From Streptomyces sp. Ru71 (GTDB lineage: Bacteria; Actinomycetota; Actinomycetes; Streptomycetales; Streptomycetaceae), in NCBI RefSeq assembly GCF_002920535.1, contig NZ_PQSS01000005.1, positions 1 to 64,000 on the forward strand: a stretch of 64,000 bases of DNA, read 5' to 3'. Every line of letters begins with the position of its first letter. Position 1 is the first letter of the stretch. Under the pieces are notes generated by a model that did not search any database, had not been told where the DNA came from, and was given only the letters and a program-made list of their open reading frames with translations. The translations under genes and the position numbers were made by a program. Below are positions 10,742 to 15,839 of this stretch, piece by piece.

Positions 10742-10792
10742 TCGCTCGGCGCTACCTTCGTGGACGCATGTCCACACACGAAGGAGGGACCC

Positions 10793-11773
10793 GTGGGCGG
10801 GACGTCGAAGGGTGAGCAGCGCATAGGTCTGCTGAACGGCTTCGCGGCGTACGGGATGTGGGGCCTGTTCCCGCTCTTCTTCCCGCTGCTGGAGCCCGCC
10901 GGCGCCGGCGAGGTGCTCGCCCACCGGATGATGTGGTCCTTCGTCGTGGTCGCCGCGGTCCTGATCGTCGTACGGCGGTGGAAGTGGGCCGGCGAGCTGC
11001 TGCGGCAGCCGCGCAGGCTCGGGCTGGTCGCGGTCGCCGCGGCCGTCATCAGCATCAACTGGGGCGTCTACATCTGGGCCGTGAACAGCGGCCACGTCGT
11101 CGAGGCCTCGCTCGGCTACTTCATCAACCCGCTCGTCACCATCGCGATGGGCGTGCTGCTGCTCAAGGAACGGCTGCGGCCCGTGCAGTGGGCCGCCGTC
11201 GGGGTCGGCGTGGCCGCCGTCCTCGTCCTGACCATCGGCTACGGCCGGCCGCCGTGGATCTCCCTGATCCTCGCCTTCTCCTTCGCCACCTACGGGCTGA
11301 TGAAGAAGAAGGTGAACCTCGGCGGCGTGGAGTCGCTGGCCGCCGAGACCGCGATCCAGTTCCTGCCCGCGCTCGGCTATCTGCTGTGGCTGACCGCGCA
11401 CGGCGACTCGACGTTCACCACCGAGGGCCCCGGCCACACCGCCCTGCTCGCCTCGACCGGCGTGGTCACCGCGCTCCCCCTGGTCTGCTTCGGCGCGGCC
11501 GCGATCCGGGTGCCGCTGTCCACCCTGGGGCTGCTGCAGTACCTGGCGCCGGTGTTCCAGTTCCTGTGCGGGGTCCTGTACTTCCACGAGGCCATGCCGC
11601 CCGAGCGCTGGGCCGGCTTCGCCCTCGTGTGGCTGGCCCTGATCCTCCTCACCGCCGACAGCCTGCGCACGGCCCGCCGAGCCTCCCGCCTGCGCACCGC
11701 ACTCAGGGAAGCGACACCGGCCACCGAGACCGCGCCCACGGAGACACCGACGGCCCCTCGGGTGGAGGCCTAG
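10793..11773 (+). CDS. rarD: RarD/EamA-family transporter
   Basis: This is a cytoplasmic-membrane transporter of the drug/metabolite superfamily with 326 residues and about ten hydrophobic helices in two EamA repeats. The RarD signature is visible near the N-terminus (GFAAYGMWGLFPLFF, then LAHRMMWS) and in INWGVYIWAVNSGHVVEASLG. The GTG at 10793 follows AAGGAGG at 10781-10787, which fixes the start. The substrate is unknown; the name comes from chloramphenicol sensitivity in other bacteria. It appears monocistronic. Confidence 0.85.
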   Translation: MGGTSKGEQRIGLLNGFAAYGMWGLFPLFFPLLEPAGAGEVLAHRMMWSFVVVAAVLIVVRRWKWAGELLRQPRRLGLVAVAAAVISINWGVYIWAVNSGHVVEASLGYFINPLVTIAMGVLLLKERLRPVQWAAVGVGVAAVLVLTIGYGRPPWISLILAFSFATYGLMKKKVNLGGVESLAAETAIQFLPALGYLLWLTAHGDSTFTTEGPGHTALLASTGVVTALPLVCFGAAAIRVPLSTLGLLQYLAPVFQFLCGVLYFHEAMPPERWAGFALVWLALILLTADSLRTARRASRLRTALREATPATETAPTETPTAPRVEA

Positions 11774-12150
11774 CCGCGACCAAGGCCCCGGCGGGTGTGC
11801 TGGACCTTCCGAACTCCCCCTCGGCTTCGTGGAATTGCTCTCACGAGAGCACCACAGGACGCTATCGTTTCGATGAACGCAATGTGCAGACACATCGCCG
11901 TATGGGGCCGGGAATAGTCCTGGAGGCCGTCGTCGAGCAGCTCCTCGGCGTGGCCAACGCTGGCGGGGGTGGCGCTTCCGGAGAAGCCTGATCGCCCGCC
12001 GAGCGCTGACCGCCGCGGTTTGCTGGACGTGGCGTGGCGCGTGGTGAAGAGGCACCCCACGCCCTGCTCCGGCGGCACGCCCGGCAGGAAGGGTCCGGCG
12101 ATGGCGCCGGAAGCGGCCCGTGTGTGTCTCCATGCGGAGTTGGTCGCCCC
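11774..12150. other. Intergenic region before the DUF3800 gene
   Basis: 377 nt without a convincing gene. The part at about 11820-11900 is less GC-rich than its surroundings and could hold a promoter or the decayed end of an older gene; short open frames on both strands show no family resemblance. It marks the left edge of the two-gene accessory module that follows. Confidence 0.4.
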
Positions 12151-12843
12151 ATGACCATCACAGCCGCCGCGGCGCCGCTGCGGCTTTACTTCGTCGACGA
12201 TTCCGGCGACGGCAGAGCCATCGTGTCATTCGCCGCGCTCGGCCTGGATCTCCCCCAAACCAGTGGCGCCCTCGCCCACTGGCTCGCCTTCCGCGCCGAA
12301 CTTGCCGCGGACGCCCGCCTGTTGATCCCGGCGACGGCCGCCCTGCACTCCCATGAACTGGCCGGTGGCCGCGGCCGGCACATTCACCACTCCCGCAGCA
12401 CGGACCGCGACCTGCACCGGCGGCACGCCCGAGAGGTGATCCTGCGCGGCTTGCGCGCCGTGTCCGGCTTCCCCGGTGTCCGGGTGCGCGCGGTGTACCG
12501 CGAGACCGATGACTACGCCCGCGACCGACCGGACCTCTATGCCGCCCTGCTGGCACAGATCAGCGAGGAACTCGCCACGACCGGACACCACGGAGTCGTC
12601 ATCGTGGACGGTGACGGCACCGAGACCGCGCTGCGTCACGCTCACCGCCGCCTGCCCGACCCGGGGCGCCGCGTCGTCGGAGATCCGGTCTTTCTCGCCG
12701 CCCGCACGAGCCAACTGCTCCAGGCGGCCGACATGGTGGCTTACGCCGCCTTCCAGACTGTCGCGAAGCGGGAGAACCGGCGCTTCATGTGGGACTGGTT
12801 CGGCTCCGTACTGCCCGGTGCCGACGGGCCGCGCGCCCTGTGA
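12151..12843 (+). CDS. DUF3800 domain protein, putative metal-dependent nuclease fold
   Basis: 230 residues. The N-terminal strand reads LRLYFVDDSG (Asp16-Asp17-Ser-Gly), the hallmark of DUF3800. A second acidic site follows at VIVDGDGTE (Asp153, Asp155), and a C-terminal one at LLQAADMVAYA (Asp194). This order fits the RNase H-like arrangement of the family, suggesting metal-dependent nucleic-acid cleavage, but no activity is established here. ATG 12151 begins right before the conserved strand and lacks a strong ribosome-binding site. It is followed after 164 nt by a large unknown gene on the same strand; the two appear to be one accessory module. Confidence 0.8.
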   Translation: MTITAAAAPLRLYFVDDSGDGRAIVSFAALGLDLPQTSGALAHWLAFRAELAADARLLIPATAALHSHELAGGRGRHIHHSRSTDRDLHRRHAREVILRGLRAVSGFPGVRVRAVYRETDDYARDRPDLYAALLAQISEELATTGHHGVVIVDGDGTETALRHAHRRLPDPGRRVVGDPVFLAARTSQLLQAADMVAYAAFQTVAKRENRRFMWDWFGSVLPGADGPRAL

Positions 12844-12898
12844 GACGCCGATGCCCGAGCCGCCCGGGCAGACGGTGAATCCCCTCTGTGAAGGGACT

Positions 12899-12960
12899 GG
12901 GCCCCGGCCGTACGACCAGGGCCCAGCCGGGCCGGACCTGGGCCCGACACCTCGGGCCAG
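12899..12960. promoter_or_regulatory. Two inverted repeats between the DUF3800 gene and the large unknown gene
   Basis: A 26-bp imperfect palindrome at 12899-12924 has GGGCCC ends and a CGTACG centre. It is followed at 12938-12960 by a hairpin pairing CTGGGCCCGA with CGGGCCAG through one bulge. They lie in the 164-nt gap and could be a terminator, an attenuator or operators for the downstream gene. Confidence 0.4.
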
Positions 12961-13007
12961 GACCGCGTTTTCAGTCTTCCATACCAACCACCGATCCCGG
13001 AGGGTCC

Positions 13008-15311
13008 ATGTCGAAGCCCGCCAGCCGCCCCGTCACGGTGCCCTGGGGCAAGGAGTCGATCGTCGTCTCCGACTTTCCGCGCGTCCTGCCCGACGCCTCC
13101 GACGTCGACGACCGCAACAAACTGGTGCGCGCCGGTGCCGCCCACCCGCTGACCGGACTCACCGAGGACGCCTGGCACGCGGTGGCGCGCGCCGGCACCG
13201 TCCCCTCCCTCATCACGCAGCAGTTGCGCCTGCCCCAGCAGGACGGCTCCAGCCTGCTGCTGGAGGAGCACGTGGACGGGGCGACGCTGCGCTCGGTCCA
13301 CGCGCGCGTGTGGTTGAGTGAGCTCTTCCCCGGTATCCAGCCGCGCACCAGCCAGGAGCAGCTGGACGTGGACGACCCGAAGGTGATCGGCGAGGCCGAG
13401 GGGGAGAAGCCGCTCGCGCTGCTGCGCTACCGCTACCGCGACCGGCAGCATCTGTTCGATCACGTCCGGCAGACACTGTGCGCGACGCTGTACCGCAACT
13501 CCTACGCCGAGTCGATTCTGGCCCGCCGGGTGACCAGGGCCTTGATCGTTCATCCTGTGGTGTTCGAGTTCGAGGACGGTGAAGAGTCCGTCACCGCACT
13601 GGTCGCCCGGGACGGCATCACTCGACTCGCCAGCGCCTGGAAGGTCCTGGCCGGACACGGCACCACGCCCGACGACGTCGCCAAGATCGCCGCGGGTGCC
13701 CTGCTCACCCCGCGCGAGCAGTCCCCCAACGAGCCCCGCAAGCCGTTCACTCAGCGCCTCGCGCTCGGCCGTGAGCAGTACCGCAGCCAGCTGCACGCCG
13801 AGTTCTCGGACGCGGTCGCGGCCGCTGGTGCCGCCGGGGAGGTGCCGGACCGCACCGTTCGCATCGCGCAGACCTACGTGGTGCCCGCGCACATCGCGGT
13901 CGGCATCGAGGCCCACGAACTCAGCACGCTGCGGATCTCCGACGTGTTCGACGACGCGCTGCGCTCGATCCTGGCCTCGGTGCACGTGGAGTTCAAACCG
14001 TGGGACGAGTCCGCCCAGAACGTGGAGGTGGCCACCCGCGCGCTGAAGCTCGTCGTGCAGACGCGAGCGGCCGAGTGGGGCATGGAGAAACTGCTCCAAG
14101 GCGTGCACGCGCTGGCCACGGGCCGGCTGGCGGAGACCGCCGTGCCGGACGTCTTCAACGACACACGGATTCCCGGGACGCCCCTGTGGCGGGCGGTGTA
14201 TCTGGTATACGCGCTGACGCGTCCTCCGCTGCACGACGAGCTGAAGGCCCGCGCGAAGGACATCAAGAACGACCGCCGGATGTCGACGAAGGGGTATGCC
14301 GGTCTTCTCGGCCCCATCATCGACCTGGCGTGGCGCTCCCAGAAGGGTTCCGCGCTGGCCCAGGCCCGCAACGCCTGGGCCAACGGCGGAGTGCTGTGCA
14401 CGGACGTCCTGACCAAGGAGTGGGACCCCGTGCCGACCGACGACTTCACCGGCCTGGTGGAGCCGGCGCTGAAGGGCGACACGAACGCCCGCTGCACCCT
14501 GGCCGTCGCGGGTGGCATCGCTCTCATCGCCGACAAACTCCTCACCCGTAACGTCGGCTCCGCGGTCTCGCCGACCCGCCAAGCGGGCAAGGTGCCGTTC
14601 CGGGCCGACGTCTCGGTGGTGATCGGCGGGCTGGCCAAGGAGGGCAACGCCCACGGACTGTGGCTGCTCGCGCACGCGGCCCAGCGGTTCCGGGCGCTGA
14701 CCATGCCGGGCAACACCAGCGCGCGGCCCCGGCTCGGGCAGGCGGGCAGCTCACCGCCCTACGAGCATGTCGCCATCGATCTTTCCGCGGCGGACCGCGT
14801 GGCCCGGGATGGGTCCGCCGAGCGCGCGCTGACCACGTGGGACGTCGTGTACGCGTCCGATGAGAACCGTGCCGAGGACCAGATCCGCAAAGCGCTGAGG
14901 CTGTACGCGCCGGCCACCGGGTCCGGCACGCAGCCCGCCGGGACGCAGGGCACACCCGGCGCCGGTGGTACTTCGGTGGTTTCACCCGGTCAGAGCAGCA
15001 GCCGGGGGCAGGGAGCCCAGCCGGTCGCACCGACGCTGCGGATCGAGGACGTGCGGCGGGAGCTGGCCAAGCTGCTGGAGGAAGCCAAGGAGTCGCTGAC
15101 GGTGCTCGACACCCTCGGGCAGGGCCGGACGTACCCGCCGCTGCTCGGGGCCGCCGAGGAGTGGACCGAGCTGCGCGAGACAGCGATCGAGATCTTCAAG
15201 TTCATCGACGACCACGGCCCGTCCCAGGCGGACGCGGACAGCGACGGGGAGGAAGAGGAAGAGGTGCCGGCGGAGAGCGAGCCGGACGAGGAGGCGCCGG
15301 CCGCGGAGTGA
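13008..15311 (+). CDS. Large protein of unknown function (767 aa), module partner of the DUF3800 protein
   Basis: I do not recognise this protein. It is soluble, with no signal peptide or membrane helix. The first ~200 residues include a mixed alpha/beta region ending in VFEFEDGEESVTALVARDGITRLASAW. A long helical middle follows, then a Gly/Ser/Gln-rich linker near 650-670, a predicted coiled coil (RIEDVRRELAKLLEEAKESL, from about residue 680) and a very acidic C-terminus (EEEEEVPAESEPDEEAPAAE). ATG 13008 has GGAGGG upstream. Acidic tails and coiled coils suggest assembly with a partner or nucleic-acid mimicry, but this is speculation. Confidence 0.75.
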   Translation: MSKPASRPVTVPWGKESIVVSDFPRVLPDASDVDDRNKLVRAGAAHPLTGLTEDAWHAVARAGTVPSLITQQLRLPQQDGSSLLLEEHVDGATLRSVHARVWLSELFPGIQPRTSQEQLDVDDPKVIGEAEGEKPLALLRYRYRDRQHLFDHVRQTLCATLYRNSYAESILARRVTRALIVHPVVFEFEDGEESVTALVARDGITRLASAWKVLAGHGTTPDDVAKIAAGALLTPREQSPNEPRKPFTQRLALGREQYRSQLHAEFSDAVAAAGAAGEVPDRTVRIAQTYVVPAHIAVGIEAHELSTLRISDVFDDALRSILASVHVEFKPWDESAQNVEVATRALKLVVQTRAAEWGMEKLLQGVHALATGRLAETAVPDVFNDTRIPGTPLWRAVYLVYALTRPPLHDELKARAKDIKNDRRMSTKGYAGLLGPIIDLAWRSQKGSALAQARNAWANGGVLCTDVLTKEWDPVPTDDFTGLVEPALKGDTNARCTLAVAGGIALIADKLLTRNVGSAVSPTRQAGKVPFRADVSVVIGGLAKEGNAHGLWLLAHAAQRFRALTMPGNTSARPRLGQAGSSPPYEHVAIDLSAADRVARDGSAERALTTWDVVYASDENRAEDQIRKALRLYAPATGSGTQPAGTQGTPGAGGTSVVSPGQSSSRGQGAQPVAPTLRIEDVRRELAKLLEEAKESLTVLDTLGQGRTYPPLLGAAEEWTELRETAIEIFKFIDDHGPSQADADSDGEEEEEVPAESEPDEEAPAAE

Positions 15312-15371
15312 GACCGGCCGAGTGCGGGTTTCTTCGTATGGTGCCGGGACCGGGGCGGTATCACTGGTTGC

Positions 15372-15839
15372 ATGACCACGACGACACCGGCCCCGGTGCA
15401 CTTCAAGATCGTCATCGACGCCGCAGATCCGCACGCGCAGGCCGACTTCTGGGCCGCCGCCCTGCACTACGAGGTGGAGGACAACGCCGCGCTCATCGAG
15501 CAGCTGCTCGCGGCCGGCGCGCTGCCGGGTGCGGCCACGGTCGAGTTCCACGGCCGTCCGGCCTTCCGCGACCTGGTCGCCGTTCGGCATCCCGACGACC
15601 CCTATGACCCGCGCAGCGGCACCGGGCTGGGGCGGCGGCTGCTGTTCCAGCGGGTGCCGGAGCCGAAGACGGTGAAGAACCGGCTCCATCTCGACCTGCA
15701 CCCCGGGGACGGGCGGCGCGCGGGTGAGGTGGAGCGACTGACGGGGCTCGGGGCGAGTGTGCTGCGGGAGGTGAAGGAGCCCAGCGGGCAGTGGGTGGTG
15801 ATGGCCGACCCGGAGGGAAACGAGTTCTGCGTGCACTGA
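15372..15839 (+). CDS. VOC (glyoxalase-like) domain protein
   Basis: 155 residues forming two glyoxalase-type beta-alpha-beta-beta-beta modules: HFKIVIDAADPHAQADFWAAAL at the start and RLHLDLHPGDGRRAGEVERL in the second half, ending in VMADPEGNEFCVH, the usual VOC terminus. This subgroup (glyoxalase_6-like) has mostly unknown substrates. Metal ligands are likely among the His and Glu residues on those strands. It lies 60 nt after the unknown gene but probably is an ordinary backbone gene. Confidence 0.82.
   Translation: MTTTTPAPVHFKIVIDAADPHAQADFWAAALHYEVEDNAALIEQLLAAGALPGAATVEFHGRPAFRDLVAVRHPDDPYDPRSGTGLGRRLLFQRVPEPKTVKNRLHLDLHPGDGRRAGEVERLTGLGASVLREVKEPSGQWVVMADPEGNEFCVH

Follow-up and report, generated by a model that had tools for sequence, protein, structure and literature searches.

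Two candidate structured RNAs interleaved with genes for a predicted DUF3800 nuclease and a putative ParB/Srx-like protein in an accessory locus of Streptomyces sp. Ru71

By analyzing a stretch of 64,000 nucleotides (nt) from Streptomyces sp. Ru71 (hereafter the window; all coordinates are positions within it, and all features listed below lie on the plus strand), we found what appears to be a small movable cluster in which two previously uncatalogued candidate structured RNAs, R2 and R1, are interleaved with genes for a predicted nuclease of the DUF3800 family (P0001) and for a protein of an unnamed family (P0002). The operon order is R2, DUF3800, R1, P0002, with 90 nt between the end of R2 and the start of the DUF3800 gene, and 26 nt between the end of R1 and the start of P0002. 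An original prediction had singled out the two genes, which do occupy 12151-12843 and 13008-15311 on the plus strand, as an effector and its partner. The pair itself stood, but the description was incomplete: two structured RNAs, R1 inside the interval and R2 just before it, had been missed, as had the ParB/Srx-like domain that the partner appears to carry. The features of the locus are as follows.

11884-12060, plus strand: R2, a predicted multi-branched structured RNA (10-locus alignment A7, covariation, model R2)
12151-12843, plus strand: DUF3800 protein P0001, 230 amino acids (aa), a predicted RNase H-fold nuclease (PF12686, conserved acidic motifs, published fold)
12892-12981, plus strand: R1, a predicted two-hairpin structured RNA with an invariant A-A mismatch and a conserved 3' tail (14-locus alignment A3, covariation, model R1)
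13008-15311, plus strand: P0002, 767 aa, with a putative ParB/Srx-like N-terminal domain, a long helical middle, C-terminal helices and an acidic tail (models, family alignment)
13029-13907, plus strand: modelled N-terminal region of P0002, residues 8-300 (pLDDT 84.5, pTM 0.85; structural second look)
13611-13625, plus strand: DGITR motif, P0002 residues 202-206, the proposed nucleotide-site DGxxR (family alignment, hhalign)
11863-11868, plus strand: possible -10 box TATCGT just 5' of R2, weak, seen by eye in a five-locus alignment

The two genes were followed through 34 P0002-family loci (the window, 10 genome contigs, 21 further genomes and 2 plasmids), 27 of them close relatives and 7 distant; a fragment with stops in genome G042 was excluded, and the split homologues in G035 and G240 (L043 and L073) were counted once each. 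A DUF3800 gene lies directly 5' of P0002 in 20 of the 34, all within the 27 close ones, and so the pairing is not due to chance. Relatives of P0001 are present in 12 of the 199 genus genomes, and 6 of them have the DUF3800 gene directly 5' of a P0002 relative. By either count, the two genes are not rarely linked.

P0001 itself matches Pfam PF12686 (E 3.1e-7, 31.6 bits, with a curated cut-off of 21). The acidic residues of a nuclease-like fold expected of it were recovered in VDDSG (16-17), VDGDG (153, 155) and QAAD (194), all conserved in the family, and would make up an RNase H-like acidic site that presumably holds the catalytic residues. DUF3800 is described as an RNase H-fold nuclease family in the available text of PMC10910872 and PMC12669027, which also places it in Cas12a2 and VI-F loci and proposes for it a role in interference, or in the biogenesis or degradation of CRISPR RNA.

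R1 comprises two hairpins, the first with up to 13 pairs and the second with the A-A mismatch set between near-invariant pairs, and then a conserved tail around AGUCU. Across the 14 aligned loci, 84.2% of the cells are paired as compared with 78.2% (standard deviation, SD, 1.1) in shuffled alignments, pairs with two-sided changes number 14 as compared with 6.8 (SD 1.6), and covariation reaches 0.229 as compared with 0.111, each with 0/500 shuffles; versions slid along the alignment gave a covariation of 0.029-0.103. The folding z-score against column shuffles is -16.8 (0/200), while the measure of further pair types showed no excess over shuffles (369/500). The covariance model built on R1 gives its own 14 sequences 44.8-91.3 bits, including 82 bits for the window by construction. 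On 39 sources, nothing beyond the training sequences exceeded 26 bits. In 150 genus genomes, three matches exceeded 70 bits, each at a locus that carries both DUF3800 and P0002 and had been used for training, and the remainder stayed below 38 bits; those of about 29-38 bits resemble GC-rich hairpins and were not counted.

R1 is present in 13 of the 20 DUF3800+P0002 loci, being missing from L027, L032, L033, L036, L040, L066 and L068. It is also found 3' of a DUF3800 gene in L045, in a genome lacking a P0002 match, and the model detected it right behind stand-alone plasmid DUF3800 genes in five of eight records (23.6-35.7 bits, independent of training); in the other three, including a Bacillus plasmid, a related short stem is visible by eye. 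Since R1 also follows such stand-alone genes, we assign it, as a predicted RNA, to DUF3800. Among other DUF3800 subfamilies of the genus (L242-L244), a different branched structured RNA was observed behind the stop codon (z -8.7, 0/100).

Structured RNAs next to DUF3800 genes were reportedly first listed in the original motif paper. Their association with these genes is described in the available text of PMC10910872, and the Rfam families of this kind include DUF3800-I (RF02969) and DUF3800-IX (RF02968), as given in the portion of PMC11701678 at hand. R1 resembles them in being a structured RNA that adjoins a DUF3800 gene, but no Rfam family matched R1, even in a short-stretch search; the DUF3800 families were among those that did not, so R1 is filed in none of them. 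The Ru71 locus differs further from these known cases in that another RNA and a putative ParB/Srx-like protein are added.

Loss at the DUF3800 active site was seen only where R1 is absent. All 13 R1-bearing DUF3800+P0002 loci keep the first acidic motif, while it is lost in four of the seven without R1, namely L033, L036, L066 and L068; in L066 and L068 the other acidic motifs are lost too, whereas L033 keeps them. As catalytic loss is thus confined to loci without R1, the active site and the RNA may well depend on each other. A random draw would place all four losses among the seven with a probability of 35/4845, or about 0.007 (hand arithmetic), a figure that overstates the true weight, since the four loci look related rather than like four independent events. 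The DUF3800 gene of L036 (7470-10531, genome G009) is split over two frames, the second of which runs stop-free into the P0002 frame to give an open frame of 1012 aa; this broken copy was excluded from the DUF3800 alignment.

R2 was detected in 10 of the 20 loci that have both DUF3800 and P0002, and its consensus is multi-branched with 43 pairs. In this case 90.6% of the cells are paired (shuffled 84.1, SD 1.0; 0/500), a percentage that leans towards structure because the structure was derived from the same alignment. Pairs with two-sided changes number 16 (shuffled 9.3, SD 1.9; 0/500), covariation is 0.343 (shuffled 0.222, 0/500; slid versions at most 0.131), and a five-sequence test gave z -6.7 (0/100). 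No match in an Rfam scan overlaps R2. Its model gives the ten training loci 108-155 bits, with 139.8 for the window by construction, and the next match in 45 sources scored 20.4. Weak full-length matches were obtained in L041 (16.4 bits) and L074 (15.3 bits), both on the right strand and just 5' of P0002 homologues without DUF3800; comparable scores were also reached by a few matches at other positions. With filters off, the L041 match outscores all others in its stretch (E 9.5e-5, 401 bases), and its aligned hairpins agree with those of R2 but the closing stem does not. The upstream region shared by L041 and L074 also folds better than column shuffles (z -4.0, 0/100). Because of these matches and this folding, R2 would seem to belong with P0002.

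In L044, L072, L070 and L033, no R2 match rose above noise with filters off. The upstream regions of further P0002 clades without DUF3800 include some that beat column shuffles, with z -3.8 for L043/L073 (two sequences) and z -3.2 for L044/L072/L076 (three), each at 0/100. Plain folding z-scores for the 220 nt 5' of each P0002 homologue were mixed, with many near zero and some positive, and since the start positions were guessed, they neither support nor exclude upstream RNAs.

P0002 had been called unrecognised, and so it proved: no significant match was obtained in the Pfam, PADLOC, NCBIfam and PHROGs profiles or among PDB sequences, and 14 family members scanned singly had no Pfam match at E 0.1. 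The predicted coiled coil and acidic tail are consistent with helices at residues 676-705 and 716-735 and a tail at about 741-767, with low model confidence in this part. A whole-length model (pTM 0.42) had no useful match in the PDB or among viral structures and was set aside. The N-terminal model, built from 11 sequences, was more informative. Foldseek, a check named in the original prediction, returned nothing at E 0.001 on its own, but in a structural second look all 11 listed entries were ParB/Srx proteins (ParB with cytidine diphosphate (CDP), Noc, PadC and sulfiredoxins), with low Z values of 3.3-3.9. Profile alignment of this domain by hhalign gave P 0.022 against ParB, where QPR, SI and DGITR align with the ParB motifs QPR, SI and GERR, and P 0.074 against DUF262, where DGITR aligns with DGQQR; the positive control, ParB against DUF262, gave 0.0067, and the negative controls 0.44 and 0.70. 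On account of the unanimous entries and the two alignments, the N-terminal domain is likely of the ParB/Srx type, as far as a model can tell. It also has the GxxR nucleotide motif in the form of DGITR, whose G203 and R206 are invariant in the 14 members. Compared with ParB, Noc, PadC and sulfiredoxin, P0002 has large insertions, no Pfam ParB match and other partner genes. In two homologues (L043 8177-10422 and L073 7214-9678), the protein is encoded in two overlapping frames, which may be a natural two-gene version or a frameshift.

One close known system is GmrSD, a type IV restriction enzyme. According to the available part of PMC4619093, its ParB/Srx subunit GmrS has a DGQQR motif and a nuclease partner. 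The Ru71 locus is similar in that P0002 combines a putative ParB/Srx domain bearing a DGxxR motif with a long helical part, and that the nuclease is a separate protein. In contrast to GmrS, P0002 lacks a DUF262 match in Pfam (PF03235; none at E 1, nor for the 14 members at E 0.1) and is therefore not a DUF262 member by profile; moreover, the nuclease is a DUF3800 and not an HNH protein, and RNAs are present. Another comparison is offered by the DUF3800 accessory proteins of Cas12a2 (V-A2) and VI-F CRISPR systems, in which, as excerpted from PMC10910872 and PMC12669027, an RNase H-fold DUF3800 protein sits beside an RNA-guided immune system. Unlike these, the two-gene unit described here lacks a Cas protein, and Pfam gave no TPR match.

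The cluster is flanked by genes for a rarD-like transporter at 10760-11773 and, on the other side, a VOC-like protein at 15372-15839, both named by the original prediction and from their sequence, without a Pfam scan. Its insertion between them, which had been proposed from the Ru71 sequence, is borne out by relatives. Of 24 same-genus relatives compared, 15 have rarD and VOC within 10 kb of each other on the same contig and strand. Seven of the 15 show a spacing of 83-283 bp and eight one of 734-5322 bp, as compared with 3601 bp here. Two other Streptomyces loci, L026 (Streptomyces sp. TSRI0107) and L030, have the same pair with the same flanking genes. The interval holds other insertions in G009, G019 and G005 (L204-L206), marking it as a variable spot, and their cargo looks ordinary by sequence (an MFS transporter, a regulator and a monooxygenase). 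Rather than being universal in Streptomyces, P0002 has relatives in 12 of the 199 genus genomes (9 at >=48% identity over most of the protein), and in 12 of 197, 5 of 296 and 3 of 396 genomes at the level of order, class and phylum, respectively, the last by family profile; these samples overlap. We take the pair to be an accessory insertion on these comparative grounds, with carriage of relatives on plasmids and insertion between rarD and VOC as signs of mobility. A recent compositional island was rejected, the GC content of 0.69-0.73 across both genes being similar to that of the flanks.

Taking together these computational observations on parts, order, conserved folds, linkage, accessory distribution and catalytic loss, we tentatively favor a four-part ribonucleoprotein module in which DUF3800 works with R1 and the GmrS-like P0002 with R2, a reading that we consider possible but somewhat short of probable. 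The first unit would be DUF3800 with R1, the RNase H-fold protein binding, and probably maturing or cleaving, the RNA encoded right behind its own stop codon. The second would be R2 with P0002, which also exists without DUF3800. P0002 would probably bind a nucleotide through its DGxxR domain and serve as a sensor and a scaffold, in the way that GmrS does for GmrD, with R2 and R1 either holding the complex together or keeping it inactive until an invader is sensed, upon which the DUF3800 nuclease would be released or aimed. RNA binding, nucleotide binding and nuclease activation are what we infer in this module, with immunity as a plausible purpose. DUF3800+R1 seems to be nested inside the R2+P0002 unit, because R1 follows stand-alone DUF3800 genes while R2-like RNA occurs, weakly, 5' of P0002 homologues without DUF3800; nesting of one RNA-protein unit within another would leave just the order R2-DUF3800-R1-P0002.

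DUF3800 proteins adjoin structured RNAs and sit in CRISPR loci. The Ru71 locus brings the predicted RNA of a DUF3800 protein together with a partner protein and a further RNA in a single compact operon, in a genus that can be cultured. In addition, the loci form a natural series (active DUF3800 with R1, degenerate DUF3800 without R1, R1 without P0002, and P0002 with other RNAs), so that the action of DUF3800 on its RNA is open to direct test. What the locus adds is the unnamed P0002 family, together with two or more predicted RNA structures not catalogued before. Titles and opening parts of abstracts of the DUF3800 papers searched contain no description of the pair, of R1 and R2, or of P0002, and other papers may cover parts.

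Several points weigh against the four-part module. R1 and R2 are predicted RNAs, and their presence in 13 and 10 of the 20 loci, respectively, with both in only 8, makes neither of them obligatory. The strong matches of both RNA models are the training sequences themselves, the ParB/Srx entries have low Z values and no counterpart in Foldseek alone, and the loci with catalytic loss are related. Furthermore, PADLOC had no match for either protein, with the rest of the window not surveyed for defence genes, and no relative of either protein was found in phage records or viral contigs. Of the likeness to defence or mobile-element cargo seen in the original prediction, the accessory insertion holds and defence stays a plausible purpose. 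A known anti-phage system was rejected for want of a PADLOC model match, as was a phage origin, neither protein being matched in phage records or viral contigs.

A different explanation, which we regard as fairly unlikely, is that the RNAs are cis-acting leaders, R2 controlling DUF3800 and R1 controlling P0002 through attenuation or through DUF3800 cutting its own operon RNA, so that an RNA-protein machine would be unneeded. Each RNA does lie shortly 5' of a start codon, and by eye the conserved CCUGG/CCAGG and AGUC pieces allow more than one pairing. However, in L164, L165 and L170 the R1-like RNA stands behind a DUF3800 gene and the annotated gene that comes next is encoded on the opposite strand, leaving nothing right behind the RNA for it to control.

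That DUF3800+R1 is a selfish or addiction cassette, similar to a type III toxin-antitoxin system, which landed between R2 and P0002 and is functionally unrelated to them, we hold to be improbable. It would account for stand-alone DUF3800 genes with an RNA on plasmids (29 plasmid records match P0001) and for the 14 of 34 P0002 loci without DUF3800, and a small RNA next to a nuclease gene is indeed common to both. Type III antitoxin RNAs are tandem repeats, however, and a search of 11700-15500 for tandem-repeat RNA found no such array, just four arrays of 6-11 base units, so that a type III system was rejected; the RNA here is also behind, not before, the nuclease gene. In addition, the linkage in 20 of 34 loci and the constant order across divergent loci argue for joint selection. 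An accessory regulatory or stress-response module without a role against mobile elements is quite improbable, as the sparse distribution, the relatives on plasmids and the nuclease partner fit defence better, despite the empty defence-library search and the ordinary look of other rarD-VOC cargo.

Returning to the four-part module, the partners of P0002 vary between loci, from which we infer that it is the core protein, with interchangeable effectors. An extension of this, a new class of two-RNA ribonucleoprotein immune systems in which a ParB/Srx nucleotide switch loaded with R2 is joined by exchangeable nuclease cassettes that each bring an RNA of their own (DUF3800+R1 in this case), seems to us unlikely. 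Five of the 14 loci without DUF3800 directly 5' (L034, L035, L037, L042 and L069) have a small conserved protein in that position, and some of them also a second protein of about 226-294 aa. The small protein, of about 112 aa (MDFTIIKHAV..., L042 6600-6935), has no Pfam match, and a similar reading is found in the DNA 5' of the L040 DUF3800 gene. Among partner genes of other loci, two had weak PADLOC matches (E 0.00094 and 0.015). In the plasmid locus L077, the gene that overlaps the end of the distant P0002 homologue (11943-12359) weakly resembles GIY-YIG nucleases in Pfam (E 0.0088, short of the cut-off), and one that overlaps the end of the distant homologue in L072 (3116-3601) looks GIY-YIG-like by eye. 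Lastly, tRNA genes lie shortly 3' of the P0002 homologues in L041 (10268-10341) and L074 (9981-10069), and integrase-like open reading frames were seen by eye nearby in L042 and L074, together pointing to tRNA-site islands.

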